Shown: in pieces, positions 7,447 through 22,962 of the stretch
Layout of the letters: each line of letters opens with the position of its first letter
Numbering within the stretch: position 1 is the first letter of the stretch
From: a virus
Length of the DNA: 24,188 nucleotides
Strand: one strand, 5' to 3'
Virus record (IMG/VR): IMGVR_UViG_3300013132_000255
Location: 1-24,188 of that record
The notes under the pieces: model-generated
Database searches by the model: none
What the model saw: only the letters and a program-made list of their open reading frames with translations
What the model was told of the DNA's origin: nothing
Program-made: the position numbers and the translations under genes

Positions 7447-9357
7447 ATGTTAGGTAAATGGTTAGTAGATCAACTTATTAACGAACAGCAGATAAAAAAT
7501 ATTATTGTTATATATCCGGGACGATTTCAGCCCATGGGTAAACATCATGCTGATGTGTATAACAAGTTAGCTAACATATTTGGTAGGTCTAATACATATA
7601 TTGCTACATCAGATAAAGTTGATCTGCCTAAATCTCCATTAAATTTTCAAGAAAAAAGTCTTGTCATTAAAAATCACGGTATAACAAACGTTGTACAAGT
7701 AAAAAATCCATACCAATCTACAGAAATTACTAGCAAATATGACCCAGAGACTACTGCAGTATTGTTTGCGGTCGGCAAAAAAGATATGATGGATGATCCT
7801 AGATTTCGTGTAGGATTTAAAAAAGATGGTTCACCGTCATATTTTCAATATTATGATGACAATAAAAATAATTTATTGCCATATACACAACATGGCTATT
7901 TATATGTTGCACCACATGTATCATTAAATGTTCCTGGGTTCGGTGAAATGTCTGGGACAATATTACGACAGGCATTAGCAACGGCCACTCCTGACGAATT
8001 CAAGACGATAATGGGGTTCTTTGATCCGGGTGTATATAATTTACTTAAAAAAAAATTCTCAGTGTTAGCAACAGAACATACTAATAAACAGGCTATACCA
8101 TCATTAACAAAAGAATGGTGGCAACAAATTATACGTGAGAATCTTTTAAAGGAAGGCGGTGCTTCCGGGCATATGGCACACCCGTTCGATGATAGAGATT
8201 TAACTTTCGGTGAAATGAAAGACATAATTCGTTTATCACTTGAAGGTAAATTAGACGTTGATTCGGCAGTAACTGAAAAAACTGATGGGCAAAATTTAAA
8301 TGTGACATTTAAGGATGGAAAGGTAGGTGCTGCACGTAACAAAGAAACAATTCGCAATCCGTTAGATGTACAATCGTTAGAACGTAAATTTGCAGATCGA
8401 GGTGAAATTACCAAAGCGTTCTCATATGCAATGAGAGATTTAGAACAAGCCATAATGGCTATACCGGCCGAGAAACGGGAAGAAATATTTCAAAACGGTA
8501 CAAGATTTTTAAACGTTGAGATAATATATCCCGGCACAAAAAATGTTATTAACTACGGAAATGCTGCATATTTACAATTTCACGGATTAAATGAATTTGA
8601 TTTAGACACAGCGCAAAAAACAGATACGCTACCGGAATACGGAACGTTATTGCAAAGTTTAATTGCAGATGTTAATGCAGATGTACAAAAACATTTCAAG
8701 ATTATTCCACCAAAAAAACTAATGATTGCGCGCAGTATTGATTTTGAACAACTGGAGCCAGCATTTATCTCACAAGTTACAAACTTACAAAATGAGTTTA
8801 ACCTCAAAGATACAGATGAAGTTATTAAATATCATGAACAGTGGTGGCGTAGAGAAGTAGAAAAAATGTTTCCAACATTATCTACAGAAGCACAAAACGG
8901 TCTCATACGACGTTGGGCATATGATGACAAAACATTTAGACTTAATGCAACGACGATACCAGATGCGAATGCATTAGATTTGGCAAAAAAATATGATACG
9001 CAAGACTTTACCGCTCAAAACAAAAAAAATGTATCACAGTTTGAAGATATCTTTTTAAAATTAGGCGCCGAGGTGCTATCAAATGTATCTAATTTTTTAG
9101 CAGTAAATCCTAGTGATAGTATTCGAGAATTGAGATCTGATATTGCTAAAACTATCAAACAGCTTAAGTCATCCACTGATTTAAGTGCATTGTCAAAACT
9201 AAAACGAGAACTACGGCGCGTAGAAACAATCGGCGGATTTGATAAGATAGTCCCATCTGAAGGTTTAGTGTTTATGTACAAAGGTAAGATGTATAAACTA
9301 ACGGGTTTATTCGCGCCGATCAATCAATTGTTAGGTTTAACACGATATAGTCGTTAA
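7447..9357 (+). CDS. Fusion of HIGH-type nucleotidyltransferase and polynucleotide-ligase-like domain
   Basis: 636 aa in two parts. Residues ~18-205 are a cytidylyltransferase/NMNAT-like fold: GRFQPMGKHH (25-34) sits where family members have GRFQPxHxGH, and MSGTILR (168-174) matches the ISST-x-x-R motif. The first His of HxGH is Gly here and the Gly is His, so catalysis may be altered. Residues ~240-636 carry the order of motifs of ATP-dependent RNA/DNA ligases: EKTDGQN (277-283, Lys278 as candidate nucleotide acceptor), a FLNVEII segment (354-360, motif III-like), SEGLVF (604-609, motif IV-like) and YKGKMYKLTG (611-620, motif V-like). A helix-rich insert lies between. The linker (~220-240) contains IIRENLLKEGG. 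Such proteins are common near structural genes in marine T4-like phages, but their role is not settled. Substrate (NAD-type, RNA or DNA ends) cannot be told from sequence. Confidence 0.75.
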   Translation: MLGKWLVDQLINEQQIKNIIVIYPGRFQPMGKHHADVYNKLANIFGRSNTYIATSDKVDLPKSPLNFQEKSLVIKNHGITNVVQVKNPYQSTEITSKYDPETTAVLFAVGKKDMMDDPRFRVGFKKDGSPSYFQYYDDNKNNLLPYTQHGYLYVAPHVSLNVPGFGEMSGTILRQALATATPDEFKTIMGFFDPGVYNLLKKKFSVLATEHTNKQAIPSLTKEWWQQIIRENLLKEGGASGHMAHPFDDRDLTFGEMKDIIRLSLEGKLDVDSAVTEKTDGQNLNVTFKDGKVGAARNKETIRNPLDVQSLERKFADRGEITKAFSYAMRDLEQAIMAIPAEKREEIFQNGTRFLNVEIIYPGTKNVINYGNAAYLQFHGLNEFDLDTAQKTDTLPEYGTLLQSLIADVNADVQKHFKIIPPKKLMIARSIDFEQLEPAFISQVTNLQNEFNLKDTDEVIKYHEQWWRREVEKMFPTLSTEAQNGLIRRWAYDDKTFRLNATTIPDANALDLAKKYDTQDFTAQNKKNVSQFEDIFLKLGAEVLSNVSNFLAVNPSDSIRELRSDIAKTIKQLKSSTDLSALSKLKRELRRVETIGGFDKIVPSEGLVFMYKGKMYKLTGLFAPINQLLGLTRYSR

Positions 9358-9387: not shown

Positions 9388-9915
9388 ATGAGTGCAAGCA
9401 AAAATACAAAAATCTCTGAAACAAAATTACGTTCAGTGATTCGCCGTAAAATAAAAGAAGCATTGCGGAGCGATGATTCATTTTTATCGCAAGTTGGTAG
9501 CAGTGTAACTTCTAGATTAGGATCTCGTCGTCAGACATTAGACAGAATCTTAGCTACTATTGATACCGATCGTTTAGGTAAACTACCTAACAGCCAAAAA
9601 GTAGATTTACTTGTAGCATTAGTTCAAAAATTTGGAATATCAGCACGCGATTTTGCTAGTATTAAATCACGTGTACAACGTATGATAGGCGATGATTCAC
9701 CAGTAACTGAGGCTAATGCACCAACGTTGCCAGCATCTCTAGCCAGTAAAGGCGAAAAACTAGAAAAGACTCAAGCATACCAAATGTTAATGAAGTCAAT
9801 TGCAACCAAGCCGGCTGCACAACAAGTAGATTTTGCAATTCAATTTTTAAACAATCTTCCGTTAGATGATGCCGGCAAGCAGCGTCTTAAAATGAAGATT
9901 CGTCAATTCATGTAA
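9388..9915 (+). CDS. Small helical protein with capsid-targeting-like N-terminus
   Basis: 175 aa of unknown family, Lys/Arg-rich and mostly helical. Residues 9-26 contain L-R-S-V-I-R-R-K-I-K-E-A, closely matching the starts of the proteins at 10521 and 18703. I22-K23-E24|A25 fits the (L/I)-x-E|(A/G/S) site of the T4 gp21 prohead protease. In T4, short N-terminal tags of this kind guide internal proteins into the prohead and are then removed. The rest has repeated helical stretches (KVDLLVALVQKFGIS; QQVDFAIQFLNNLP) that look like two similar bundles. A role as a packaged internal protein is inferred from the tag and from lying just before the packaging genes. It ends 2 nt before the next start. 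Confidence 0.75.
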   Translation: MSASKNTKISETKLRSVIRRKIKEALRSDDSFLSQVGSSVTSRLGSRRQTLDRILATIDTDRLGKLPNSQKVDLLVALVQKFGISARDFASIKSRVQRMIGDDSPVTEANAPTLPASLASKGEKLEKTQAYQMLMKSIATKPAAQQVDFAIQFLNNLPLDDAGKQRLKMKIRQFM

Positions 9916-9917
9916 TC

Positions 9918-10517
9918 ATGAGCGAAAAGTTACAAAATGTTAAAGCGGTACGCGAGTTGCTTGACGGCACACACCGATCACAGACGCGTCATACCTACGG
10001 TTTCACAAAGACATCTCATACAAAACATGCTATAGGCGATACATGGACCGAACAATCACCTAACGGCATTGAATATGAAATTACACAACACGACGGATAT
10101 AGAACAAAGCGACCAAAAAATTCAGTTAATGATCAAATTAAAGATCTGTTAAAAGTTCCAGACATATGCCCAAAGTGTGCTACTAAAATGCGTAATGAAG
10201 AAAAACGATTAAACTTTAAATTTTGGTTTAAGCGTAAACAGTGTTTTAGTTGTGTATTGAAAGAGGAACAGTCAATACGAAATCAAGGCCAAGATGCATG
10301 GCAAGAATATGAACGTCGTATTATGTTGGAAAATGCCGAATCATGGTTTCATGATGCCGATGCTGAGGTTGAAATTCTTAAACAGCAATTAACCGAAACG
10401 TATTGGCAGAATGGAGATGGTGAACGCGGCGAAGTTGATATTTCACTAATCATTCAAAAAATGGAACAAGACTACGAACAACTTAAATTAGATATTCGTA
10501 GTCGTTTTGGGGAGTAG
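9918..10517 (+). CDS. Zinc-ribbon-like protein conserved in marine T4-like phages, function unknown
   Basis: 199 aa. CPKC (84-87) and CFSC (109-112) form a four-Cys pair 21 residues apart, which predicts one structural zinc site. Before it lies a polar domain with GDTWTEQSPNGIEYEITQHDG (40-60), and after it an acidic helical tail (130-199) likely to form a coiled coil. It resembles small zinc-ribbon proteins I associate with the terminase neighbourhood in marine T4-like phages, but I cannot name a function. It starts 2 nt after the upstream gene and is followed at 4 nt by the next, so it is part of a tight unit. A packaging or head role (for example in place of a small terminase) is possible but unsupported by any clear gp16-like feature. 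Confidence 0.75.
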   Translation: MSEKLQNVKAVRELLDGTHRSQTRHTYGFTKTSHTKHAIGDTWTEQSPNGIEYEITQHDGYRTKRPKNSVNDQIKDLLKVPDICPKCATKMRNEEKRLNFKFWFKRKQCFSCVLKEEQSIRNQGQDAWQEYERRIMLENAESWFHDADAEVEILKQQLTETYWQNGDGERGEVDISLIIQKMEQDYEQLKLDIRSRFGE

Positions 10518-10520
10518 CTC

Positions 10521-11216
10521 ATGACAACAAATGAACAATTATTACGTGCGAGCATACGTCGTTTAATATACGAAACATTAAATGAAGCCGATGGGGAAAT
10601 GCCTATTACAGATGATGAACAGGCACAACTTGAAAAAGAAATGGGTAATGCATTATCAGCATTAAAGTCGCAAGCAACAAATGCTAAACAACTCAAAGAA
10701 GCCCGTCAGCAAGTTCGTGAAGCTGATATCAAATTAAATGAGGCGTTAGGAACAGTTGCAATTATAGGCGCAATTTTAGCAGCCCCAAAAATTATAGAAC
10801 TTATTGCTAAAGGTATCTCAAAATTAGTTAAATTGTTTAAAAAACTAGTAGGTGTTAAGGCAGCTACAACGGATGATGAACGCGTTGATACGGCTAAGCG
10901 TATTATTGACTTTACACATAAATGGCATAAAGGGTATATTAAAATTATTAAGTTTATATTGTCAGCGACGGGCATTTTAGATAAAGCGGGTATTACTAGT
11001 CCACAGGAACAAATGAAAGCGGCTGAAGTTGTATATTATACTATAATAGCCGGCCTAGCTGTATACAGTGGCATCGGTGCTGTTAGTGCATTTAAATCTG
11101 CTGCAGCGAGTGCCGTTAACGGTAGTGACTTTGCACTCGGTACTTTTGAAACAGTTATGGCGTCAGTTAAGACAACGGAAGTTACTGAATTTTTAACAAA
11201 AGTATTTAAAGTATAA
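10521..11216 (+). CDS. Amphipathic/membrane-type small protein with capsid-targeting-like N-terminus
   Basis: 231 aa, read from a GGGGAG ribosome-binding site. Residues 8-19 (L-R-A-S-I-R-R-L-I-Y-E-T) align without gaps with those of the 9388 and 18703 proteins, and LNE|A occurs at 20-23 and again at 72-75, both fitting gp21-type cleavage. The centre has a hydrophobic run (77-89) followed by a Lys-rich amphipathic helix (IAKGISKLVKLFKKLVG, 95-111), and a second hydrophobic segment lies at 170-190. This pattern suits a protein that is carried in the head and interacts with the membrane on entry, but that is an inference. It could also be a head-associated scaffold component. No known family recognised. 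Confidence 0.7.
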   Translation: MTTNEQLLRASIRRLIYETLNEADGEMPITDDEQAQLEKEMGNALSALKSQATNAKQLKEARQQVREADIKLNEALGTVAIIGAILAAPKIIELIAKGISKLVKLFKKLVGVKAATTDDERVDTAKRIIDFTHKWHKGYIKIIKFILSATGILDKAGITSPQEQMKAAEVVYYTIIAGLAVYSGIGAVSAFKSAAASAVNGSDFALGTFETVMASVKTTEVTEFLTKVFKV

Positions 11217-11235
11217 TTTGTTAGCCTAACAAATT
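11215..11235 (+). repeat. Hairpin overlapping a stop codon before the terminase gene
   Basis: AATTTGTTAG (11215-11224) and CTAACAAATT (11226-11235) are inverted repeats separated by one base, so an RNA stem of about eight pairs with a five-base loop can form. It begins in the stop codon at 11214-11216 and lies 21 nt before the terminase start. There is no T-run, so it is more likely an RNA stability or processing element than a terminator. Confidence 0.5.
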
Positions 11236-11256
11236 TAAATTATATTATAGGTTATA

Positions 11257-12834
11257 ATGGCGCAACGTAGTATTAAAGAAGTCATTCGGGATGAGTACAA
11301 AAAATGTGCACAAGATCCTGTACACTTTATGCGTAAATATTGTGTCATTCAACATCCTACCAAAGGTAAAATGTATTTTAACCTCTATCCGTTTCAAGCG
11401 GATATGTTAACTACAATGCAGCATAACCGTTATAACGTAATATTAAAATCACGGCAGTTAGGAATTTCAACATTATCAGCAGGATTTGTGTTATGGAATA
11501 TGCTGTTTAAAAGTGACTACAATGTATTAGTTATTGCGACGACGCAGGAAGTAGCTAAGAATCTTGTAACAAAAATCAGAGTCATGCATGAAAATCTGCC
11601 GGCATGGCTTAAAGGAAAAACTATTGAAGATAATAAACTTTCACTACGTTTTAAAAATGGCTCGCAGGTAAAAGCTGTATCTAGTACGGGAACGGCTGGT
11701 AGATCTGAAGCACTTTCATTGTTAGTTATCGATGAGGCTGCATTTATTAAAAACATCGAAGAAATTTGGGCATCAGCACAACAAACATTAGCAACGGGCG
11801 GCGGGTGCGTTGCATTATCAACGCCTAACGGCACTGGCAATTGGTTTCATAAAACATGGGTCGATGCTTCACTAGGTGGACAATTTAAGCCTACAGAACT
11901 ACATTGGACAGTACATCCCGAGCGTACTCAAACATGGCGAGTTGAACAAACTGAATTATTAGGTGAAAAGATGGCAGCACAGGAATGTGACTGCGATTTT
12001 ATAACATCAGGCCATACCGTGATTGACGGTCCTATATTACAATGGTATGAACAAACATATGTACAGGACCCAATTGAACGACGCGGGTTTGATGGTAATT
12101 ATTGGGTATGGGAGTATCCAAATTATAGTAAAGATTATGTAGTAGTAGCTGACGTTGCACGCGGCGACGGAGCCGATTATTCAGCATTCCATGTTATTGA
12201 AATTGAATCATTAACACAGGTTGCGGAATATAAAGGAAAAATAGGCACTACAGAGTTTGGTAATATGTTAATATCTGTTGCAACTGAGTGGAATAATGCA
12301 CTGCTAGTAATTGAAAATGCAAACATTGGATGGGCAGCTATACAAGTTGTAATAGATAAGAATTATGCGAATCTATATTACTCGTATAGACAAGATGCGT
12401 ATATTGATGAGGATATTCATTTAGCAAAGGGTTATGATTTAAAAAATAAAGCACAACAGGTACCTGGCTTTTCAACAACATCAAAAACTAGACCGTTAGT
12501 GATTTCTAAGTTAGAAACATACTTTCGAGAAAAATCACCAATTGTACGTAGTAAACGTCTGATAGATGAGTTGTTTGTATTTATATGGAACGGGTCAAAG
12601 CCAGAGGCACAACATGGTTATAATGATGACTTAGTTATGTCGTTTGCAATTGCATTATGGGTTAGAGATACTGCATTGCGTCTACGTCAGCAAGGCATCG
12701 AATTATCAAGAAAGTCGTTAGGATATTTTGGTAAAGTACAACATACAACAGGCGTATATTCTGCTAATAAAACGCATGATTCTTGGCAGTGGCGTAATGG
12801 GTACGGACAAGATGACCTAACATGGCTTATTTGA
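11257..12834 (+). CDS. 17: Terminase large subunit (T4 gp17-like)
   Basis: 525 aa; pumps phage DNA into the prohead and cuts it. The ATPase half has a deviant Walker A, KSRQLGIST (64-72), Walker B LLVIDEAA (155-162) and the coupling motif STPNGTGNW (188-196). The nuclease half has the RNase H-type acidic residues in VVVADVARGD (295-304), LLVIENAN (349-356) and GYNDDLVMS (454-462). In T4 the P-loop is SRQLGKTT; here Lys is replaced by Ile, a change common among phage terminases, where Lys64 is the likely working residue. Length is shorter than T4 gp17 (610 aa). It is followed by the portal gene after 24 nt, without the sheath and tube genes that separate them in T4. No small terminase gene is recognisable nearby. 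Confidence 0.97.
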   Translation: MAQRSIKEVIRDEYKKCAQDPVHFMRKYCVIQHPTKGKMYFNLYPFQADMLTTMQHNRYNVILKSRQLGISTLSAGFVLWNMLFKSDYNVLVIATTQEVAKNLVTKIRVMHENLPAWLKGKTIEDNKLSLRFKNGSQVKAVSSTGTAGRSEALSLLVIDEAAFIKNIEEIWASAQQTLATGGGCVALSTPNGTGNWFHKTWVDASLGGQFKPTELHWTVHPERTQTWRVEQTELLGEKMAAQECDCDFITSGHTVIDGPILQWYEQTYVQDPIERRGFDGNYWVWEYPNYSKDYVVVADVARGDGADYSAFHVIEIESLTQVAEYKGKIGTTEFGNMLISVATEWNNALLVIENANIGWAAIQVVIDKNYANLYYSYRQDAYIDEDIHLAKGYDLKNKAQQVPGFSTTSKTRPLVISKLETYFREKSPIVRSKRLIDELFVFIWNGSKPEAQHGYNDDLVMSFAIALWVRDTALRLRQQGIELSRKSLGYFGKVQHTTGVYSANKTHDSWQWRNGYGQDDLTWLI

Positions 12835-12841
12835 TATTTAT
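12834..12841 (+). promoter_or_regulatory. ATATTTAT upstream element, copy 4
   Basis: Exact ATATTTAT overlapping the last base of the terminase stop codon, 17 nt before the portal start at 12859. The leader reads AAAAAGAAATTAGATT, without a strong ribosome-binding site. Confidence 0.45.
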
Positions 12842-12858
12842 TAAAAAGAAATTAGATT

Positions 12859-14748
12859 ATGGCAGATACATCATTAAGGTCTAGATTAGGTAGATTATTT
12901 TCTACTAATGTTGTAGTACGGCGTATTGCAAAAAATCAATTAAAGGTAGTTGATACAAACAAACTACAATCTATGGGGTCATTATCTAATAATAGATACA
13001 TTGACCGCTTTTCTGGCATGCACAAATCTTCATCCGGTTATGCCACATATAATCAAGCGTATTCATTCTTTACATCAAAAATAGAATTATATTCTGACTA
13101 TGAAGCAATGGATATGGACCCAATTATTGCATCGGCGTTAGATATATATGCAGATGAATGTACGGTTAAAGATACCGACGGTGATACGTTAACAATCTCA
13201 TCACAGAACGACGAAATTAAAAAAGTACTGCATAATCTATTTTATGATATTCTAAACATAGACTATAATCTTTGGCCGTGGATACGTAATGCATGTAAGT
13301 ACGGCGACTTTTTTCTACATTTAGATATTGAAGATGAGATTGGCATAGTAAATGTAACGCCGTTATCGGCATATGAGGTGCGCAGAGAAGAAGGGTTTGA
13401 TCCTACAAATCCATATGCATATAAATTTGTATGGGAGGGAACGCATACCATGTATGCCTCGGCCCGTGTTGCAAACAAAGACATGCGCGAATTTCAAAAT
13501 TTTGAGATTGCACATTTTAGATTGTTGTCAGACACGAACTTTTTACCGTACGGTAAATCAATGATTGAGCCAGCACGTAAAGTATTTAAACAGTTAATAC
13601 TTATGGAAGATGCTATGTTAATTCATAGAATTATGCGCGCACCAGAACGTAGAATATTTAAAGTTGATGTAGGTAATATTCCGCCCAATGAAGTTGATAC
13701 GTATATGCAAAGCATCATTTCTACAATGAAAAAGATTCCATATGTAGATGAGCGTACGGGCGACTACAATCTTAAGTTTAATATGGAAAATATGATGGAG
13801 GATTATTTCCTCCCCGTTCGAGGTGGTGAATCCGGCACGGCCGTAGAATCATTACCTGGACTATCTAATGACGGCCAAATCGAGGATATTGAATACTTAA
13901 GAAATAAGATGCATGCGGCACTTAAAATTCCTAAGGCATTTTTAGGATATGATGAGGGGGTCGAGGGTAAAGCTACATTAGCCGCGGAAGATGTGCGTTT
14001 TGCTAGAACAATTGAGCGTATACAAAAAATATTTGTATCAGAACTTACTAAAATTGCAATCGTTCATTTATTTTCTCAAGGATTTAAAGATGAAGAGTTG
14101 ATTGACTTTACATTGGCATTATCTAATCCATCTTTAATCTATGAAAAGCAAAAAATTGAGTCATTAAATGAGAAAGTTTCATTAGCAACTAGTATGCGTG
14201 ATTCATTACTGTTCTCGGAACAATGGATTTATGAAAATATATTTGGAATGAGTAAAGATGAGTGGTCTGCAGAACAAGACCAAGTTATTGAAGATATTAA
14301 ATCTGCATTTAGAAAAGAACAAATAAAGTCCGAAGGTAATGACCCTAAAAAGACTAACATGAGTTTTGGTACGCCGCATGATATTGCAGCAATGCATGTG
14401 TCGACACGTAACGGTGAATTATTACCTGGCCAGGAACAAGAGCATGTTGCAGGTCCGGGTAGACCTAAATTACCGGGCACTTGGGGAACCCATTCATCAC
14501 CACATGGCAGAGATCCATTAGGCATTAAATCATTATCAACAACATTTAATACAGATAAGTCGCCATTACAACATAATTTTCGTGGAGGTTCGCCATTGAG
14601 TACTGAAAATAAAAATACGATGGCTTTGATTAAATCATTGAAATTATCTAAAACATCATCAATAATTCATGAATCATTGAATATGCCAGTGCCTGATACT
14701 GACCATGGAACGATGCTAGATGAAGCTCAGTTATTTGATGATAACTGA
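12859..14748 (+). CDS. 20: Portal vertex protein (T4 gp20-like)
   Basis: 629 aa; forms the dodecameric ring at one capsid vertex through which DNA passes and on which the prohead starts to assemble. Typical T4 portal segments are seen: YSDYEAMDMDPIIASALDIYADE (78-100, given here only as landmark ends Y78 and E100), the APERRIFKVDVG region, PYVDERTGDYNLKFNMENMMEDYFLPVRGG landmarks, and IPKAFLGYDEGVEGKATLA before the crown. Length is slightly above T4 gp20 (524 aa); the extra ~100 residues are at the C-terminus, which is Pro/Gly/Ser-rich and contains IIHE|S and MLDE|A near the end, both fitting gp21-type sites. The gene is preceded by the ATATTTAT element. Confidence 0.95.
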   Translation: MADTSLRSRLGRLFSTNVVVRRIAKNQLKVVDTNKLQSMGSLSNNRYIDRFSGMHKSSSGYATYNQAYSFFTSKIELYSDYEAMDMDPIIASALDIYADECTVKDTDGDTLTISSQNDEIKKVLHNLFYDILNIDYNLWPWIRNACKYGDFFLHLDIEDEIGIVNVTPLSAYEVRREEGFDPTNPYAYKFVWEGTHTMYASARVANKDMREFQNFEIAHFRLLSDTNFLPYGKSMIEPARKVFKQLILMEDAMLIHRIMRAPERRIFKVDVGNIPPNEVDTYMQSIISTMKKIPYVDERTGDYNLKFNMENMMEDYFLPVRGGESGTAVESLPGLSNDGQIEDIEYLRNKMHAALKIPKAFLGYDEGVEGKATLAAEDVRFARTIERIQKIFVSELTKIAIVHLFSQGFKDEELIDFTLALSNPSLIYEKQKIESLNEKVSLATSMRDSLLFSEQWIYENIFGMSKDEWSAEQDQVIEDIKSAFRKEQIKSEGNDPKKTNMSFGTPHDIAAMHVSTRNGELLPGQEQEHVAGPGRPKLPGTWGTHSSPHGRDPLGIKSLSTTFNTDKSPLQHNFRGGSPLSTENKNTMALIKSLKLSKTSSIIHESLNMPVPDTDHGTMLDEAQLFDDN

Positions 14749-14776
14749 TTTTTGGATATAAATTAATCACAACACT

Positions 14777-14784
14777 ATATTTAT
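14777..14784 (+). promoter_or_regulatory. ATATTTAT upstream element, copy 5
   Basis: Exact ATATTTAT in CTATATTTATAAAAAAG, 33 nt before the start at 14818. It lies in the 69-bp gap after the portal gene and would drive the four-gene string that ends with the prohead protease. Confidence 0.45.
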
Positions 14785-14817
14785 AAAAAAGTATGATTAT
14801 AACAGGACGAATACTTC

Positions 14818-15660
14818 ATGAAACGAATCAAGCATTCAAAGTATAAAAATACAGGCCTAATCTTTGAACTTCTCGTCCGCCAAGTTGCATCCGACACGAT
14901 GCACAATAGAGACTCGAAAGCGTTACGTATTCTAAAAAAACACTTCTCAAAAAATGCAGAATTGTCAAAAGAATTAAAACTCTATCGTTCATTACATGAA
15001 GAGAAGTTTACGGGTGAGCGTAAGGCGGAGTTGTTTTTAGATGCTGTGTTATTATCTAGACGACAAATAAATGAAACGCAATTGCGTAGAGAAAAATTCA
15101 ATCTTGTAAAAGAGATAAATAATATATTAGATGCTAATGAATTTTTCAATGCTCGCATTTCTACGTATAAGCAGCATGCTGCTATATATAAATTATTTGA
15201 ATTTAGCGAAGCCGATGATCCTCGAGGTTATGTCGAAAACAAAATTGCATTAACTGAACATATTCAACATCAACCAAAAACGGACAATAAGCCCTCATTA
15301 ATATCAGAAGATAAAGATATACGTATATTGGCATCAAAACTAGTCGTTGATAAGTTTAACGAAAAATACGCTAATTTAAATACGGCCCAAAAAGAAATGT
15401 TGCGTGAGTATATTAATAATGTTACAAACTCAACAAAGCTTAAAACATATGTTATCAATGAAACTAAAAAACTAGAAGTAGAACTTCAGTCATTAATTAA
15501 AGGCGTTTCTAGTAAAATAACTCGTATTAAACTCAATGAAGTTGCTAGCCTATTAGAACAACTACGCCAAAAACATGTTGTACAAGATAAAGATATTGTA
15601 ACCATGTTACGGTATTATGAGTTAATAGCTGAATTAAAAAAAGCAAAGGGAGCTAACTAA
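14818..15660 (+). CDS. Conserved head-region protein between portal and protease, helical, unknown
   Basis: 280 aa, Lys/Glu/Leu-rich and almost all helical. It begins with a basic segment and KNTGLIFELLVRQVASDT (11-28), a start I associate with a conserved protein lying between portal and prohead protease in marine T4-like phages. The C-terminal third (EVASLLEQLRQKHV; MLRYYELIAELKKA) predicts coiled coil. Position matches T4 gp67/gp68, which are prohead core proteins, but it is much longer than either and I see no direct likeness. A core or scaffold role is inferred. Its stop overlaps the next start (TAATG). Confidence 0.8.
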   Translation: MKRIKHSKYKNTGLIFELLVRQVASDTMHNRDSKALRILKKHFSKNAELSKELKLYRSLHEEKFTGERKAELFLDAVLLSRRQINETQLRREKFNLVKEINNILDANEFFNARISTYKQHAAIYKLFEFSEADDPRGYVENKIALTEHIQHQPKTDNKPSLISEDKDIRILASKLVVDKFNEKYANLNTAQKEMLREYINNVTNSTKLKTYVINETKKLEVELQSLIKGVSSKITRIKLNEVASLLEQLRQKHVVQDKDIVTMLRYYELIAELKKAKGAN

Positions 15661-15962
15661 TGGCACGTGGTCAAACTTACTTAGCTCCTAGTGGTTCGCA
15701 AATTAAGCCGTTTGAAAAATATGGCTTCCCGGGTAAATATCATTCTACAATTAAATACATTAGTGGTCAGTTAGATTTAACAGGGTCTAATTTTGGCTAC
15801 GGTGCTGTGATGGTAATTACTGCCGGAAGTGCAACATTACATTCTGGTAATACTACTATAGTATCGGGCGACTTAACTGCCAAACAAATTTATGATATTA
15901 CATTATCTAAAATTACCGGCGGGTCTGGTGCTAGTATTTATTTATTCAAAAGGCAACAATAA
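15660..15962 (+). CDS. Small beta-structured protein, unknown function
   Basis: 100 aa, coupled at both ends by TAATG overlaps with its neighbours, so made in step with the portal-protease string. It is rich in Gly, Ser, Thr and Ile with alternating hydrophobic residues (AVMVITAGSATLHSGNTTIV, 56-75 region), which predicts a small beta-barrel or sandwich. No membrane segment or catalytic motif. It could be a capsid decoration or a small virion part; the sequence alone does not decide. Confidence 0.75.
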   Translation: MARGQTYLAPSGSQIKPFEKYGFPGKYHSTIKYISGQLDLTGSNFGYGAVMVITAGSATLHSGNTTIVSGDLTAKQIYDITLSKITGGSGASIYLFKRQQ

Positions 15963-16597
15963 TGAAATTTATAGATGAATTATCTCGTCAACTTAAAAAA
16001 ATGAATGAGTCCATAGATCGTGTATCGGATAAAGAGGCTAGCACTAAGTTTAATGATTTAGATGATCAGGATCTAGATAATGATGGTGATAGTGATGAAA
16101 CGGATAAATATCTGCATAAACGTTTAGGTAAAGTTGCTAAAATGGATGAGGAGGAAGAGTTAGATTTAGAAGAAATGTCTTCAACGGCTAGCGCCCCAGG
16201 GTATCAGACGCCATATGCATTTGGCCGAAAGGAAGATGAAAATGACAGCGCAGAGGTAGTAGGGTATAAGAAAGTCAAAGAAAGTGTATATAAAACTATG
16301 ATGCGTGATATGTATGGAGTTAAATCTACAAGTTTAAAAAATATGGACGAAGCGGTATCATATCGTGCATATAAAAAAGATGAAACAGCCTCACCGTCAC
16401 AAAAAGTTAATCAGAGTATTAAAGAAGTAAATAGTATGTTAGCCGAAATGGAAAAAATTGTGTCTAACAATTTACGTTTAAAACAGGAAGCCGGTGTACA
16501 TTCATCGCAGTTTTGGAAATCGACATCACAACGGTTCGCAAAAATAAACGAGCGAATGACTCGAATTTCAAACCGATTAAAAGAATTATCAAAATGA
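15962..16597 (+). CDS. Acidic head-core candidate with EF-hand-like calcium loop
   Basis: 211 aa. D37-x-D39-x-D41-G42-D43-x-D45-x-x-D48 has acidic residues at positions 1, 3, 5, 7, 9 and 12 and Gly at 6 of an EF-hand/dockerin loop, so it probably binds calcium. An acidic run (EEEELDLEE, 64-72) and a conserved-looking APGYQTPYAFGR segment follow, then a helical C-terminus (KVNQSIKEVNSMLAEMEKIV and beyond). Sites of the MNE|S, MDE|A and VKE|S type are scattered through it and loosely resemble gp21 sites. It sits two genes before the protease, where T4 has core proteins 67 and 68, so a prohead core role is likely but inferred. Its stop overlaps the next start (ATGA). Confidence 0.75.
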   Translation: MKFIDELSRQLKKMNESIDRVSDKEASTKFNDLDDQDLDNDGDSDETDKYLHKRLGKVAKMDEEEELDLEEMSSTASAPGYQTPYAFGRKEDENDSAEVVGYKKVKESVYKTMMRDMYGVKSTSLKNMDEAVSYRAYKKDETASPSQKVNQSIKEVNSMLAEMEKIVSNNLRLKQEAGVHSSQFWKSTSQRFAKINERMTRISNRLKELSK

Positions 16598-16752
16598 TTC
16601 CAAACCGTACATGGCAACAATTCAAAGCTGCCAATCCTTCATTAACTCTTGAAGATGCAAAACGCAGATATAGCGATGAGCGTAAGCGTTTTGATCAACA
16701 AGAACAGTTTATTAATTCGGGATTGTTTATGCAGGGGAACAGGAATGTCTAA
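16594..16752 (+). CDS. 52-aa basic helical protein coupled to protease gene
   Basis: The frame is open from 16513, but the ATG at 16594 overlaps the upstream stop as ATGA, the arrangement used by its neighbours, and avoids an 85-bp overlap. The product MIPNRTWQQF...GNRNV is 52 aa, Arg/Lys/Gln-rich and helical. It overlaps the protease start by 8 bp, so all three genes are coupled. Short basic proteins between core and protease genes suggest a head-assembly role; no family is recognised. Confidence 0.65.
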   Translation: MIPNRTWQQFKAANPSLTLEDAKRRYSDERKRFDQQEQFINSGLFMQGNRNV

Positions 16753-17350
16753 ACAATTACTAGTAGATTATACTTTATTCGAAGTGCCAACACAGCACGT
16801 GAATGAATCATTATCAAGAAATGACGGCAAACTAATTGTAACTGGGGTATTACAGCGCGCTGAAGCTAAAAACCAAAACGGCCGTATATATCCAAAAGAA
16901 ACATTGGTACGTGAGTCAAAAAAATATGCACAGACATTTATCGCAGAAAAGCGTGCGTTGGGCGAATTAGACCATCCGGATTCATCTGTAGTAAATTTAA
17001 ATAATGTATCTCACAATGTAATCTCTATGGAGTGGAAGAATAATGATTTGATAGGTACTATCGAAGTATTATCGACGCCCTCTGGTAATATTCTTAAAGA
17101 GCTATTTAAGTCAGGTATAAAATTAGGTATTTCATCACGTGGGATGGGATCGGTGAAAGAAGTCATGAAGGAAGGTGAAAATACATTAGAGGTTCAACCA
17201 GATTTTGAATTGATTTGTTTTGATTTTGTATCAAATCCTTCGACACAAGGAGCGTTTTTATCGCCTGTACATGAGTCAGTTGATAAGAGTATGAAAGCAT
17301 ACCATGGTTCTATTGATAGAATCATTACTGACATTATTAGAGAATTTTAA
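16745..17350 (+). CDS. 21: Prohead core protease (T4 gp21-like)
   Basis: 201 aa; a serine protease that assembles in the prohead core, digests the scaffold and trims capsid and internal proteins after (L/I)-x-E. GELDHPDS (73-80, His77), LGISSRGMGS (127-136, Ser130/131 in the active-site position) and CFDFVSNPS (158-166) match the gp21 family. The open frame extends upstream to 16649, but the ATG at 16745 has a GGGGAACAGGA leader, gives a protein of normal length and avoids a 104-bp overlap with the 52-aa gene. HVNE|S near residue 21 is a possible self-cleavage site. Its substrates are probably the scaffold, the capsid protein and the tagged small proteins of this window. Confidence 0.93.
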   Translation: MSKQLLVDYTLFEVPTQHVNESLSRNDGKLIVTGVLQRAEAKNQNGRIYPKETLVRESKKYAQTFIAEKRALGELDHPDSSVVNLNNVSHNVISMEWKNNDLIGTIEVLSTPSGNILKELFKSGIKLGISSRGMGSVKEVMKEGENTLEVQPDFELICFDFVSNPSTQGAFLSPVHESVDKSMKAYHGSIDRIITDIIREF

Positions 17351-17361
17351 TTAATCTAGTA

Positions 17362-17373
17362 TATTGTACAATA
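17362..17373. repeat. 12-bp palindrome TATTGTACAATA
   Basis: Perfect dyad in the 68-bp gap between protease and holin-like gene. The gap lacks the ATATTTAT element. It could be an operator-like site; no further support. Confidence 0.3.
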
Positions 17374-17418
17374 AGTTTCGTATTAATCTATGCATAATTA
17401 AAGTAAGGTATTGACGAA

Positions 17419-17844
17419 ATGAGTACAAAAACATTGATGAGCATTATTTTAGCCTCGACGGCAACCGTAACGTTTATATGTTCCTATTTCTTGGAATTGA
17501 CGATGAACAATATTGACCAGTTCATGGCAATTGGTATTGTCATAGGCGTAGATGGTTTATTCGGCATAATTGCCGGCACGAAACGTGAAGGATTTAAGAC
17601 ATTTAAAGCACTTAGCGTACTACGTACATTATCAGTATGGTGGATAGTATTAGGCGCTATATTAGCAATTGAACAGGCTTTTGTAGTAGCATCATGGTTG
17701 TCAGAAACAATTATTGTGCCATTTTTAGTATTTCAAATTATTAGTATTCTAAAAAATGCATCAATAGCAGGTTATATACAGGGCGATATATTAAACATGA
17801 TACTAGCTAAAATAGATCAACATAAAGATAGAACATCAGTATGA
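17419..17844 (+). CDS. Four-helix membrane protein, holin candidate (phage holin family 4-like)
   Basis: 141 aa with four predicted membrane segments at about 7-27, 35-52, 73-93 and 96-112, and a charged C-terminus (KIDQHKDRTSV). The pattern VDGLFGIIAGTKREGFKTFKAL after segment 2 resembles the D-x-x-x-G...K loop of the TcdE/holin family 4, which form holes in the inner membrane at lysis. Likeness is by pattern only; an unrelated phage membrane protein is possible. The next gene starts inside its stop codon (ATGA). No endolysin is recognisable beside it, so if it is a holin its partner is elsewhere. Confidence 0.6.
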   Translation: MSTKTLMSIILASTATVTFICSYFLELTMNNIDQFMAIGIVIGVDGLFGIIAGTKREGFKTFKALSVLRTLSVWWIVLGAILAIEQAFVVASWLSETIIVPFLVFQIISILKNASIAGYIQGDILNMILAKIDQHKDRTSV

Positions 17845-18398
17845 TTAAATTAAAATCGTTATTACCAGAATCTATGATTAGACGGTATCGGATTATAGAA
17901 GCGCCTGTAGTGTATAAAAACGATAGTAGCGCAACGGATGATACAGCATCGTCAGCGTCAGACGAATTTTTAGTATGGCTTAAATATTATCCTGTTGCAA
18001 ACAAGGCAGCTAAATTTAATGTAAAACTAACTAATGTAGAAACGTTTGTGCCAAAGGAAGAGGCTCAAGATATTGAGCAGGGTGGGCTGTTAAAAAAACT
18101 TGGTAAATCATTTTTAAAGGCTGTTAGTGGTAGTACTGCTCCGGGTATAGAATTTGAATTTACATCGCCGCGATTCAAAGGAACGGGCAGAATGGCATTA
18201 GATTATAAAAATGGTAAATTTACCCTAGGGGCAGTTCGCAAATTTGCCGGCCGAGATGCAGTTGATGCTCGTTTGACAGATGAAGCTATAGATAAATTTA
18301 TTAAATACTTGCTAACACAGTCACAATATGCTGAAGCACTTAAACAAGCATTTCCGGACATTGAAACTGCATTGACTGATAATTCGTTTAAAAAATAA
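17841..18398 (+). CDS. Small protein with capsid-targeting-like N-terminus, unknown
   Basis: 185 aa, overlapping the holin candidate by 4 bp. The start (KLKSLLPESMIRRYRIIEAP, 3-22) has I-R-R-x-x-I-I-E|A, a variant of the tag in the 9388, 10521 and 18703 proteins with one extra residue, and ends in an I-x-E|A site. A Ser/Thr/Asp-rich spacer (25-40) follows, then a compact domain with FEFTSPRFKGTGRMALDYKN (104-123) that predicts beta strands, and a helical C-terminus. No family recognised. The tag and location suggest an internal head protein. Confidence 0.7.
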   Translation: MIKLKSLLPESMIRRYRIIEAPVVYKNDSSATDDTASSASDEFLVWLKYYPVANKAAKFNVKLTNVETFVPKEEAQDIEQGGLLKKLGKSFLKAVSGSTAPGIEFEFTSPRFKGTGRMALDYKNGKFTLGAVRKFAGRDAVDARLTDEAIDKFIKYLLTQSQYAEALKQAFPDIETALTDNSFKK

Positions 18399-18416
18399 GC
18401 AAGTATTGGCTTATTT
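18393..18416 (+). terminator. Hairpin over a stop codon, possible weak terminator
   Basis: AAATAAGC (18393-18400) and GCTTATTT (18409-18416) form an 8-bp stem with an 8-nt loop that includes the stop codon of the 17841 gene. Only three T residues end the stem, so termination would be inefficient; it may instead protect the mRNA end. Confidence 0.4.
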
Positions 18417-18450
18417 AAAATGAATTTATACCGTATTGTATAGTTCAATA

Positions 18451-18460
18451 TGACATGTCA
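18451..18460. repeat. 10-bp palindrome TGACATGTCA
   Basis: Perfect dyad in the 122-bp gap between 18398 and 18521, upstream of copy 6 of the ATATTTAT element. Operator-like, unsupported otherwise. The rest of the gap is plain AT-rich sequence. Confidence 0.3.
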
Positions 18461-18497
18461 AAGTAGCCGTAATCGATAAAATTTATCATGACCAATC

Positions 18498-18505
18498 ATA
18501 TTTAT
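18498..18505 (+). promoter_or_regulatory. ATATTTAT upstream element, copy 6
   Basis: Exact ATATTTAT followed by TAAAAAGGA, 15 nt before the ATG at 18521. The string CATATTTATTAAAAAGGA is shared with the element before the gene at 23733. Confidence 0.5.
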
Positions 18506-18520
18506 TAAAAAGGATTAGAT

Positions 18521-18703
18521 ATGGCACTTATAGATAAAGTATCAAAATATGGACCTACGACCCCTATAGGTAAGCCAGGTACCGGAACAGCTGTTGATGT
18601 ATTTGGATTTGAGACTGGTGCAGGTCAAATAGGCGCTACTAGTAAGTACGGCCCTATTCTGCCATATGGTAAGCGTCCATCACGATATGAGGATTTGATC
18701 TAA
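18521..18703 (+). CDS. 60-aa protein with duplicated SKYGP...GK segment
   Basis: Good AAAAAGGA ribosome-binding site. The product has two like segments, SKYGPTTPIGKP (8-19) and SKYGPILPYGKRP (41-53), separated by a Gly/Thr/Phe-rich linker, suggesting internal duplication. Pro/Gly/Tyr-rich and lacking helices, it looks like a peptide that lies extended on another protein. It overlaps the next start by one base (TAATG). Unknown function. Confidence 0.65.
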   Translation: MALIDKVSKYGPTTPIGKPGTGTAVDVFGFETGAGQIGATSKYGPILPYGKRPSRYEDLI

Positions 18704-19026
18704 TGATTAGATTAACAAAGCTTGTTGCAAGAAATGCAATTAAACGTAGAATTACGGAAGCGGACAATGACCCAGCTATGCCTACAGCTGATACGCCAGA
18801 ACCGACTACTAGTTATATCGACTCAAAAGATTTGATTCAGCGTCTTAATTCAATTATTGATGAGTTAAATACAATTGATGATGAAATCATGAATGCATTA
18901 GATACGGCTGAATCAGAGACGGCTGACATTAAATATGGCAATGCAAAGGCTGTTATAAGTAGATATTTATCTGCAGGTATTAAAAATATAATTAGGCTTA
19001 AGCAGCCGTTGAAAAAATTATCTTGA
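18703..19026 (+). CDS. Small helical protein with capsid-targeting-like N-terminus
   Basis: 107 aa. Residues 9-20 (A-R-N-A-I-K-R-R-I-T-E-A) align without gaps with the tags of the 9388 and 10521 proteins and end in I17-T18-E19|A20, a fit to gp21-type cleavage. If cut there, the mature part starts ADNDPAMP, an acidic linker, followed by a helical domain of about 70 residues (LIQRLNSIIDELNTIDDEIM region) with many Asp/Glu and a basic end. No family recognised. Likely internal head protein by its tag. Confidence 0.7.
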   Translation: MIRLTKLVARNAIKRRITEADNDPAMPTADTPEPTTSYIDSKDLIQRLNSIIDELNTIDDEIMNALDTAESETADIKYGNAKAVISRYLSAGIKNIIRLKQPLKKLS

Positions 19027-19035
19027 GATGACAAC

Positions 19036-19677
19036 ATGAAAAAGTGGGAATCACAGTTATTACGACATATTCTTAATGAAAAGTATTTAGGCGAAGAAGA
19101 TGCGCCAAAAATGGATAAGAATGAACGTAGCCAATTTTTAGAAGCAGTATCTAACTTTCAACGGTTAGGTGAGATGATATACCGTAAAAATACATTACGC
19201 GAAGTTTCTCAGACACTAGGTAAAATTACCAAACAAGCTGAGCAACTAACAATATCAGAATCTGAGCATTGGTTTGATAATGTTACGGTATCACGCCACA
19301 TGAAACAAATGAACGAGGCATATAAAGTATTTGAAAAGACGGCAAATGAAATGTCCGGTCTGCAGCAACGTTTAGAATCCGCATATGAGGACATGGGCTC
19401 AATATTAAATCGTTATTATAAAGTTAATGGCGCACTACAAGAAGACCAGTATACTGCAGGCGTAGATGATGAAGGCCCGGCATTAGATGAAGATCAGTAC
19501 ACCGCCGGCGTAGATGATGAAGGACCTGCATTACAAGAAGACCAATATACTGCAGGCGTAAGTGATTACGGGCCAGCATTTCATGATCACATGACGTCGA
19601 CAAACTCCAAGAGATTAAAAGAAAGTGTAAAGGCTCGTCGGAAAGCTAACAAAATAGCTGCAAGACGTAAGAAATAA
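19036..19677 (+). CDS. Head-region protein with three 16-residue acidic repeats and basic tail
   Basis: 213 aa. The start (SQLLRHILNEK, 6-16) is a looser form of the tag found in neighbouring proteins (L13-N14-E15). Residues 17-132 are helical, probably coiled coil. Residues 133-180 are three tandem units of A-L-(Q/D)-E-D-Q-Y-T-A-G-V-(D/S)-D-(E/Y)-G-P. The last ~25 residues are very basic (RLKESVKARRKANKIAARRKK) and could bind DNA. This head-coil, acidic repeat, basic tail order fits a prohead core or DNA-condensing internal protein, which is an inference. No known family. Confidence 0.75.
   Translation: MKKWESQLLRHILNEKYLGEEDAPKMDKNERSQFLEAVSNFQRLGEMIYRKNTLREVSQTLGKITKQAEQLTISESEHWFDNVTVSRHMKQMNEAYKVFEKTANEMSGLQQRLESAYEDMGSILNRYYKVNGALQEDQYTAGVDDEGPALDEDQYTAGVDDEGPALQEDQYTAGVSDYGPAFHDHMTSTNSKRLKESVKARRKANKIAARRKK
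19432..19575 (+). repeat. Three tandem 48-bp coding repeats
   Basis: Three in-frame 48-bp units encode the 16-residue repeats of the 19036 protein. The DNA copies differ at several third positions (for example GGCCCGGCA, GGACCTGCA, GGGCCAGCA at the same place), so the repeat is not recent and the amino acids have been kept. Confidence 0.9.
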
Positions 19678-20368: not shown

Positions 20369-21223
20369 ATGAATGACCTTTTAAAGGAAGCCATCGCAGA
20401 CGCAAAAGCTGTTCGTGAAACTGCTATGGCAAATGCAAAACTTGCATTAGAAGAAGCGTTTACGCCTAGACTTCAAAGCATGTTATCCGCAAAATTATCT
20501 GAGGAAGAGGAAATGGAAGACGAGCCTGCTGACGAGCCGGCTCCGGCACCTGCCCCTAAGCCAGTTGAGGAAGAGGATGATATGGAACTGACGTCTGAAG
20601 AGGATGACATGGACCCAATGGATGAAGAGGATGACATGGAGCCAATGGATGAAGAGGAAGATGACATGGAACTAGAAGCAATCATTAGAGAACTTGAAGG
20701 TGACATGGAAGAGCCTGTTTCTGAAGAGGATGACATGGAGCCAATGGATGAAGAGGATGACATGGAAGAGCCTGTTTCTGAAGAAGAAGAAGAAGTTTCG
20801 ATCGATGAAATTATTCGTGCTTTGCGCGAGGAAGATGGCGAGGAAGATGAGCCAGTTACAGAAGAAGATGCTGAAGAAGAACTTAAGGAAGCATACAAAG
20901 TTATCCGTTTCTTAAGATCTAAAATCAACGAAGTTAATCTTCTTAATGCAAAACTATTGTTTTCAAACAAGTTGTTTAGAAATTATTCATTAAACGAATC
21001 ACAAAAGGTTAAAGTTATTGAAAATTTCGATCGTGCACGTACTATTCGTGAAGTAAAATTAGTTTTCAGCACATTGGCAGAGTCGTTCACTACGACAAAA
21101 CCAAAAACTCGTTTAAAAGAAAGCTATGCTTCTAAATCATCTCGTTCAACCAAGCCATCAAAGCAGGTTATTAACGAGGGCAATGATTTGGCAGCACGCT
21201 GGAAAAAATTAGCTAACATTTAA
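20369..21223 (+). CDS. 22: Prohead core scaffold protein (T4 gp22-like)
   Basis: 284 aa; fills the prohead as a template for shell assembly and is digested by gp21. The frame is open from 20318, but the ATG at 20369 has AGGAGA at normal distance. Residues ~44-172 are extremely acidic with repeated EEDDM-(E/D)-P-M-D and EEPVSEE units. The C-terminal half has the helical pattern of gp22 homologues (AYKVIRFLRSKINEVNLLNAK landmark 175-195; RARTIREVKLVFSTLAES 222-239) and the end AARWKKLANI. Seven sites fit (L/I)-x-E|(A/S/G): E7|A8, E29|A30, E174|A175, E210|S211, E238|S239, E251|S252 and E270|G271. It is followed after 17 nt by the capsid gene, within one terminator-bounded unit. Confidence 0.93.
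   Translation: MNDLLKEAIADAKAVRETAMANAKLALEEAFTPRLQSMLSAKLSEEEEMEDEPADEPAPAPAPKPVEEEDDMELTSEEDDMDPMDEEDDMEPMDEEEDDMELEAIIRELEGDMEEPVSEEDDMEPMDEEDDMEEPVSEEEEEVSIDEIIRALREEDGEEDEPVTEEDAEEELKEAYKVIRFLRSKINEVNLLNAKLLFSNKLFRNYSLNESQKVKVIENFDRARTIREVKLVFSTLAESFTTTKPKTRLKESYASKSSRSTKPSKQVINEGNDLAARWKKLANI
20623..20784 (+). repeat. Acidic coding repeats within scaffold gene
   Basis: Near-identical units recur: GATGAAGAGGATGACATGGA at 20621-20640 and 20744-20763 region, and a 26-bp string (start GACATGGAAGAGCC) identical at 20702-20727 and 20759-20784, 57 bp apart in frame. The repeats encode DDMEEPVSEE and DDMEPMDEE. The identity of DNA copies suggests recent duplication or slippage, unlike the older repeats in the 19036 gene. 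Confidence 0.8.
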
Positions 21224-21240: not shown

Positions 21241-22962
21241 ATGAACGTAAATTCATTACTCCCTCATGACTCAGTAGCTAACCAAAATGCGGTATCACTT
21301 CGTTTAGAGCGTAAGTGGGAAAAGACCGGCCTTTTGGAAGGTTTAAAGTCTGAGGTTGAAAGAAAAGGAATGGCCGTCCTTTTAGAAAACCAGGCTAAAC
21401 AATTAGTAACGGAAGTTAATAAAACCGGTACCGGTGGAAGTGATGAACAATGGGCAGGCGTTGCTCTTCCATTAGTTCGTAGAATCTTTGCTGAGATCGC
21501 TGCAAAAGATTTCGTATCTGTTCAGCCTATGAATCTTCCTTCAGGTCTTGTATTTTACTTGGATTTCAAGTATGGCACAAACCAAGGCACTAACGGATTC
21601 ACTACATCAACAGGTAATGATTTCTTAACAGGTCAAGGAAGAACTTCTCAAGGCGATTCTGTATTCGGTATTACCGATGCGGGCAACTTAGGTACTTCTG
21701 CCGCCGGCGGTGCTGCACCTAGCGAAGGTTTGTACGGCGCAGGTCGTTTTGGTTACACGATTAATGATGTTAATGCTGTCATTGCAATAGCAAATATAGC
21801 TACAGGTTCATGGTCGACTTCAACCAATACATTTACTGCTAATACAGCAACTGCATTGACAGGTGCCCAGTTAGCATTGTTCTCTAACTTCAATGCGGAA
21901 TTTTCAGCATCGGCTGCGGCAAATAGCAGAAAATACCAAGTTGTTAGAATTACAAAAGCTAGTTTGACAAATCCTGATATGAACGGTGTAAGAGCATTCA
22001 ATTTGTCAGGATCTGGTATTACTAACATCGTTCCGGAATTTACCCGTCATGATGGTACGTATATCTACTTCCTAGCACAGACTGCTGCAACTCCAGCTGT
22101 TAATCGTTCGTCATGTGAAGTAGCATATCATGTACAGCCAGCTGATAACTCTAGAGGCGACTTTGAAGATACCACTGGCGGTAACTTGACCGATACTTCA
22201 ATTCTTGATATTCCAGAAATTAATTTGGAAATGAGAAGCGAGGCAATCGTTGCTAAAACACGTAAGTTGAAGGCTATCTGGTCGCCAGAATTTGCCCAAG
22301 ACTTAAATGCATACCATAGCATCGATGCTGAGGCTGAGTTAACGTCAATGTTGTCTGAGTATGTTTCTCAGGAAATTGATCTTGAAATCCTTGACATGTT
22401 AATTCAAAATGCACAAACCATTGACCGTTGGTCTGCAAAGATCGGCTTTGAGTTCGACCCAGTAACAAACACCTTTGTTCAGTCGAATGCAACCGCTCAA
22501 GCATACAACCAAGGTACCTGGTTCCAGACATTGGGCACTAAAGTTCAAAAAGTGAGCAACAAAATTCACCAATTGACTTTACGTGGTGGTGCAAACTTCT
22601 TGGTATGTTCTCCAACGGTTGCAACTATCCTAGAATCAATTCCTGGATATGCTGCTGATACTGACGGCGATAAGATGCAATTTGCAATGGGTGTGCAGAA
22701 GGTTGGTGCAATCAACAACAGATACCAAGTTTACAAGAACCCATACATGACTGAAAATGTCATCCTAATGGGCTTCAGAGGATCTCAATTCCTTGAAACA
22801 GGTGCTGTTTATGCTCCATACATTCCGCTCATCATGACGCCATTAGTGTATGACCCGTCTAACCTAACACCAAGAAAAGGTGTTATGACGCGTTATGCCA
22901 AGAAGATGGTTCGTCCGGAATTTTACGGTAAGATTTACGTAGGCGACTTGAACGTAGTCTAA
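21241..22962 (+). CDS. 23: Major capsid protein (T4 gp23-like)
   Basis: 573 aa; forms the hexamers of the head. Read from TTTGGAGAAAAATCA. Typical gp23 segments are ALPLVRRIFAEIAAKD (75-90), VSVQPMNLPSGLVFYL (92-107) and the C-terminus ending TRYAKKMVRPEFYGKIYVGDL. The first ~58 residues form the propeptide; gp21-type cuts may be L31-L-E33|G34 or the V-T-E58|V59 site, the latter aligning best with T4 E65|A66. The protein has a Gly/Thr/Ser-rich insert at ~115-170 and a beta-rich segment at ~185-300 where insertions are usual. Codon choice is more even (more AAG, CTT, TTC, GGT) than in the fibre genes, as expected of the most abundant protein. Flanked by intrinsic terminators. Confidence 0.97.
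   Translation: MNVNSLLPHDSVANQNAVSLRLERKWEKTGLLEGLKSEVERKGMAVLLENQAKQLVTEVNKTGTGGSDEQWAGVALPLVRRIFAEIAAKDFVSVQPMNLPSGLVFYLDFKYGTNQGTNGFTTSTGNDFLTGQGRTSQGDSVFGITDAGNLGTSAAGGAAPSEGLYGAGRFGYTINDVNAVIAIANIATGSWSTSTNTFTANTATALTGAQLALFSNFNAEFSASAAANSRKYQVVRITKASLTNPDMNGVRAFNLSGSGITNIVPEFTRHDGTYIYFLAQTAATPAVNRSSCEVAYHVQPADNSRGDFEDTTGGNLTDTSILDIPEINLEMRSEAIVAKTRKLKAIWSPEFAQDLNAYHSIDAEAELTSMLSEYVSQEIDLEILDMLIQNAQTIDRWSAKIGFEFDPVTNTFVQSNATAQAYNQGTWFQTLGTKVQKVSNKIHQLTLRGGANFLVCSPTVATILESIPGYAADTDGDKMQFAMGVQKVGAINNRYQVYKNPYMTENVILMGFRGSQFLETGAVYAPYIPLIMTPLVYDPSNLTPRKGVMTRYAKKMVRPEFYGKIYVGDLNVV

Follow-up and report, generated by a model that had tools for sequence, protein, structure and literature searches.

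The proteins encoded by a viral contig of 24,188 bases (IMG/VR record IMGVR_UViG_3300013132_000255, positions 1 to 24,188; hereafter the window) were analyzed, and it was concluded that N-terminal helices carried by several of them are most likely T4-type capsid-targeting propeptides, which also serve as cut sites within multi-domain cargo proteins. The window contained the head gene block of a T4-like myovirus, comprising genes for a terminase, a portal protein, a Peptidase_S77 protease, a scaffold and a capsid protein. Its phage is an uncultivated T4-like ocean phage, and its closest cultured relatives, as judged by the portal protein, were Microcystis phage Mel-JY01 and Flavobacterium phage immuto, whose host is LMO8. 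The initial annotation had read a helix shared by small proteins as a tag for packing into the head that is cut by the phage's own gp21. As far as sequences can tell, that reading appeared well supported in an indirect way, by the co-occurrence of the protease, the match to the capsid protein site, the exchange of tags and the LxE sites at module boundaries. Proteins are referred to by the first position of their genes (Table 1), and an arrow marks a cut site or the corresponding position.

The five tagged N-termini reported initially (9388, 10521, 17841, 18703 and 19036) were all found again. Of the 26 window proteins, 3 matched the strict pattern (L/A)RxxI(R/K)RxIxE within their first 32 residues, and it had no internal match in 6,648 window residues. 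A looser pattern, [ILV][RK]xx[ILV]xE, was present over the same N-terminal range in exactly those five proteins, with 0.29 expected from shuffled N-termini and none of 3,000 shuffles reaching five; it had 2 internal matches in the same 6,648 residues. Both patterns had been fitted post hoc, and independent tests on other genomes therefore weigh more. Among 583 protein families from 14 contigs that carried S77 or came from close relatives, [LI]xE[AGS] was observed 62 times at residues 10-34 against 27 expected from internal positions (2.28-fold, Poisson P = 8e-9). This N-terminal excess disappeared once the E was replaced by D, K or Q, or was shifted by one residue. The corresponding ratio was 0.84 in three Cellulophaga phages, where the absence of S77 was checked, and the strict pattern matched none of 413 proteins from phages without Peptidase_S77. 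Enrichment of the site at residues 10-34 was thus limited to the S77-carrying phages compared. A de novo search of the N-termini by expectation maximization was dropped, as it yielded generic amphipathic helices only, and a tblastn search of the phage collection with a consensus tag returned no match.

All five proteins, and the 7447 protein as well, carried a short propeptide at the N-terminus with (L/I)-x-E at its end. The single 12-residue motif proposed initially did not survive as such: the helix with (L/I)-x-E was common to the proteins, while several interchangeable tag types were distinguished. From the aligned sequences, the constant element of this class of helices is h-x-x-h-(L/I)-x-E. 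The same propeptide type was carried by proteins with unrelated bodies, as seen in the 9388 alignment, in immuto proteins and in the homologues of 10521 and 18703. Four unrelated immuto proteins, encoded by the genes at 1803, 103806, 117631 and 118632, opened with the sequence (E)NFDLKKFLVENKLTxNSKLLxE or one close to it (NFDLKKFLVENKLT-type N-termini). Different tag types were also found on the same body, since the homologues of 10521 started with LRAEIRRLIYExLNEAD, MDTAELKIRQYIRNIIKESLYEAD, MIRLRDILNEAE or MVKLKDLLNEVISEAD, and those of 18703 with MIKLIGLVKQHRRLTEV, MKLKSLLKEQ or MNLKKQYQRLFEG. When shared N-termini were compared free of any motif, the top pairs included another body bearing the tag of 9388 (161 pairs), a protein of 83 residues bearing that of 10521, a Mel-JY01 protein that starts, like 17841, with MIKLKSLL, and the four immuto proteins. 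The tagged proteins themselves differed strongly among relatives.

The alignment of 9388 comprised 17 sequences, including four tagged proteins with other bodies, at a mean column identity of 40%. Its only invariant columns were the tag residues L14, R15, I18, I22 and L26, and E28 was nearly invariant. The main site of the family was L26-x-E28; the window protein has S28 and so no longer the usual site, which leaves IKE24↓A25, four residues upstream, as the candidate. The internal VTE108↓A lay in a low-confidence linker of the structural model, and in one relative (L012) the 9388-type tag was fused directly to the C-terminal module. The tag of 17841 was rewritten in an orthologue of 93% identity, in which only LLPES and (V/I)IE↓A were kept. 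Of the I-R-R-x-x-I-I-E↓A segment described initially, the IE↓A end was retained and the IRRxxI residues were not. Conservation in 18703 was likewise limited to the [IL]xE end of the tag, and nearly all listed N-termini of 19036 orthologues carried LxE as HILNE. The 19036 protein also contained three 16-residue tandem repeats, DQYTAGVDDEGPALxE, with an LxE ahead of each (E136, E152 and E168); judged by sequence, the repeats look as if set for cutting into short acidic peptides. Long hydrophobic stretches were noted in the 231-residue 10521 protein and would fit a membrane-active ejected protein. Proteins 9918, 14818, 18521 and 23733 were rejected as tagged, their excess of LxE[AGSNPQ] being unconvincing. 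Protein 15962 was left uncounted because its LxE barely exceeded shuffles, though its orthologues often begin with a T4-like helix.

The tags had been assigned to the N-termini of small proteins, which held for the five, but large proteins and internal positions were found to carry them too. The 7447 protein, overlooked initially, opened with MLGKWLVDQLINE↓Q and consisted of two modules. In its structural model (mean predicted local distance difference test score 83), the low-confidence segments were solely residues 1-12 and 209-244; E13 abutted the former and E236 fell within the latter. A nucleotidyltransferase alpha/beta fold was recognized in the N-terminal module (Z about 12, 145-160 aligned residues, root-mean-square deviation about 3), which by its modelled fold resembles NMNAT/PPAT-like nucleotidyltransferases. 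In the C-terminal module K278, D280 and G281 (K-x-D-G) were invariant in 24 sequences, and its matches to RNA ligases in Pfam and Foldseek were weak.

At the 43 distinct junctions preceding the ligase module, P3 was L or I in every case and P1 was E in 39, and the upstream sequence was otherwise variable. Standalone ligases opened with MIRLKKLLSEVLLNE↓GGAYGHM, their tag starting 15-21 residues upstream of the same point, and in one fusion (L221) the entire standalone tag MIRLKKLLSEVLLNE was embedded, Met included. DUF6267 took the place of the C-terminal module in four close relatives, with the junction at LLTE↓A or a variant of that site, and the standalone DUF6267 protein of Pelagibacter phage HTVC008M began with MYNDLLVE↓D at the same point. 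In the Mel-JY01 protein at 11243 the ligase junction reads IIAE. Of 12 large contigs with a fusion or a standalone ligase, 9 carried S77. In six relatives of 7447 (L184, L185, L186, L190, L195 and L239) LLLM↓GG replaced LLxE↓GG at the domain junction, and no cut is expected there if E is required. Relatives also had larger proteins in which ESVNE↓A-type sites recurred. In one of 999 residues (L158 10001-12997; G003 79071-82070), small segments were separated by seven S(V/I)(N/S/T)E-type sites; the scan for it returned two identical copies only, and from its sequence it is possibly a large cargo polyprotein. Another of 841 residues, in the cultured phage immuto (L082 13386-15911; gene at 114006), had repeated ES(V/L)NE sites and lay a few genes upstream of the terminase.

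The cut in the major capsid protein was predicted from its position relative to T4 gp23. In 28 distinct relatives the predicted site read LVTE↓A (12), LVSE↓A (7), LVSE↓V (5), LLKE↓G (2), LIDE↓A (1) and LISE↓A (1), at the same place as FLTE↓A of T4 gp23. The tag sites agreed in type with this capsid site, predicted as LVTE58↓V59 in the window and as LV[TS]E↓[AV] in the family. The gp21 gene named in the initial annotation was confirmed by its S77 match (Table 1). The tagged genes, said to lie mostly around the prohead genes, did flank the head block in the window, but tagged clusters were located tens of kilobases from the head genes in relatives G001 and G003.

Evidence from virions was available for one cultured T4-like phage. 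According to Sullivan et al. 2010 (PMC3037559), T4-GC190, a putative cytidylyltransferase, was detected by mass spectrometry in purified virions of S-SM1. Its sequence opens with MKKFSAFLNE↓AERSF, and its gene adjoins a DUF6267 gene. Taken together with the tag, the detection makes a T4-type tagged nucleotidyltransferase a virion protein in this phage.

Table 1. Positions of the tagged proteins, their tags and the head genes in the window.
Feature	Coordinates	Strand	Remarks
Two-domain protein	7447..9354	+	Tag; NMNAT/PPAT-like module ~18-208; linker NLLKE236↓GG; RNA-ligase-like module 245-634 (K278-T-D280-G281)
N-terminal tag of 7447, residues 1-13, MLGKWLVDQLINE13↓Q14	7447..7485	+	[LIVF]xE before the domain in 23/23 distinct NMNAT-module N-termini
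Inter-domain site/internal tag of 7447, residues 225-236, WQQIIRENLLKE236	8119..8154	+	43 distinct junctions
Tagged protein, 175 residues	9388..9915	+	Tag residues 14-24, LRSVIRRKIKE24↓A25; internal VTE108↓A109 before conserved C-terminal module
Tag helix of 9388, residues 14-24	9427..9459	+	Invariant columns in 17 sequences; modelled helix 11-28
Tagged protein, 231 residues, hydrophobic helices	10521..11216	+	LRASIRRLIYE18↓T and LNE22↓A23; homologues' tags differ
Prohead (head maturation) protease, Peptidase_S77, gp21 type	16745..17350	+	PF03420 E 4e-26; phrog_207 E 8e-55
Tagged protein, 185 residues	17841..18398	+	MIKLKSLLPE10↓S ... IIE20↓A; two [LIV]xE sites alone kept in orthologue
Tagged protein, 107 residues	18703..19026	+	NAIKRRITE19↓A; orthologue tags end in [IL]xE
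Tagged protein, 213 residues	19036..19677	+	LLRHILNE15↓K; LxE in 51/51 distinct orthologue N-termini
Scaffold, gp22-like, several LxE[AGSV] sites	20369..21223	+	Acidic; between protease and capsid protein; start is a chosen internal ATG
Major capsid protein, gp23-like, predicted cut LVTE58↓V59	21241..22962	+	Comparison with 28 distinct relatives

A phage-encoded homologue of the ribosomal protein bS21 was also located within the head gene block (19735-19986; PF01165, E 2e-10).

We proposed that, late in infection, a tagged protein would use its helix, which is amphipathic and mostly basic, to dock onto the core of the prohead, for which the gp22-like scaffold is presumed to provide the docking surface. 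The gp21-type serine protease of the phage would then cut after the Glu of (L/I)-x-E, while also trimming the capsid protein, and the cut body would be left free within the head. The 7447 protein would be packed as a single chain and subsequently split into NMNAT-like and RNA-ligase-like enzymes, and 9388 would be split into two helical modules. When the next host is infected, the cargo would probably leave the head together with the DNA, and its delivery into the host is a plausible proposal. The modelled NMNAT-like and ligase-like folds suggest roles for the cargo in nicotinamide adenine dinucleotide (NAD) metabolism or RNA repair. Phage NAD-restoring pathways reportedly serve as counter-defence (PMC12774641).

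It was also considered that the helices might act as a docking signal for the prohead core on proteins that are themselves core or scaffold parts, chopped up and lost like T4 gp67 and gp68, with no delivery into the host. The location of some tagged genes between the portal and scaffold genes would agree with this, as would the LxE at each 19036 repeat, which fits cutting into peptides, and the cleavage of T4 core proteins to several fragments (PMC9026906). We regarded it as rather unlikely, since the 7447 model holds two folded enzyme-like modules whose destruction would bring no evident benefit, the tagged proteins vary strongly between relatives, and a tagged nucleotidyltransferase is present in mature S-SM1 virions (PMC3037559). 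Generic amphipathic N-terminal helices, alike by composition and serving in coiled-coil or membrane binding, with LxE incidental, were judged a very improbable explanation. Similar helices do occur at the N-termini of the terminase and some baseplate-region proteins, and the basic residues of 17841 and 18703 are not conserved; yet the enrichment was specific to E after (L/I)-x, to N-termini and to S77-carrying phages, and the LxE of the junctions was conserved despite variable upstream sequence.

For 7447 alone, the LLxE↓GG segment could be part of the ligase fold, the protein working uncut in the infected cell, and conservation of P4-P1 across the ligase family along with GGxxGHM is consistent with that. 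Since the segment is placed by the model within the low-confidence linker 209-244, close relatives carry another C-terminal module, DUF6267, whose start coincides with this E position, and standalone ligases start just 15-21 residues upstream with a typical tag, this possibility was considered unlikely.

Several observations weigh against capsid-targeting propeptides as the explanation. LxE is short and common by chance, and many LxE in folded regions must remain uncut. The canonical E is, by its sequence, lost in window protein 9388 itself, and P1 was M, not E, in 4 of the 43 distinct junctions. The motif-free comparison of shared N-termini gave a modest excess only (7 against 1-2 cluster pairs), and its signal within genomes came partly from lipoprotein signal peptides. 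The N-terminus of the terminase (11257-12834, SIKEVIRDEYKKC; LKEIIRDEY in relatives and LKEIIKEEY in one) looks like a tag helix, and in the window the helix ends without (L/I)xE; to our knowledge, terminase is not a head cargo. Finally, no virion proteome of the window phage or of its nearest relatives, immuto and Mel-JY01, was found in the literature searched.

Capsid-targeting sequences are already known from T4 and P1. In T4, gp21 cuts after L/I-x-E and the propeptides are 10-19 residues long, residues 4 and 7 of the targeting sequence being important for targeting and residues 8 and 10 for processing (PMC9026906). The T4 proteins IPI, IPII, IPIII and Alt (e.g. MKTYQEFIAE↓A) likewise have an N-terminal helix of 10-25 residues on unrelated bodies, and their phage also encodes an S77 protease; their register is that of the window tags, positions -6, -3 and -2 being hydrophobic and the cut falling at a Glu. 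Only this hydrophobic spacing and LxE were common to both; identity with MKTYQEFIAE was not found in the window tags, and IPI itself differs from it. Unlike T4, the group of the window phage has several interchangeable tag types, many of them with Arg/Lys-rich four-residue repeats of the form LRxxIRxxIxxxLxE, and large proteins are tagged too, the tag recurring at internal module boundaries.

The DarB protein of phage P1 resembles the tagged proteins in that a defence protein is directed into the head by a signal at its N-terminus, the first 30 residues being sufficient, whereas for the N-termini of the Dar proteins the authors of that work found no common sequence and described no LxE-ending tag (PMC9024508). 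In phiKZ and SPN3US the propeptides of ejection proteins are likewise removed by the prohead protease after Glu, and two paralogues have an identical N-terminus, but the cuts are at A-X-E or S-X-E (P3 Ala/Ser) and several propeptides exceed 100 residues (PMC5694885). The polyvalent proteins of phages and conjugative elements are also multi-domain, and their packaging and their release by proteolysis have been predicted (PMC5512222); the release is ascribed to embedded peptidase domains, whereas for the window phage cutting by the head maturation protease at inter-module LxE is predicted. As far as the literature searched shows, it is new that tag types are so varied, that they are exchanged, and that they recur as boundaries between modules. 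The junction sites suggest a polyprotein strategy, of which no earlier description for a tailed-phage head protease was found in that literature.

It is possible, and is put forward tentatively, that far-T4 marine phages make multi-enzyme polyproteins with capsid-targeting-type sites between the modules, in which one tag would bring the chain into the prohead and the head protease would split it into enzymes, among them an NMNAT-like and an RNA-ligase-like one, that would reach the host along with the DNA and be active ahead of any phage gene expression. The relatives' proteins in which ESVNE↓A-type sites number up to seven would stand at the extreme of such polyproteins. A genome does not normally reveal which proteins its phage takes into the host. 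If the capsid-targeting explanation is true, the head cargo of a large, mostly uncultivated group of marine phages would become predictable from sequence, and the predicted cargo would include enzymes plausibly directed at early host defence through NAD metabolism and RNA repair.

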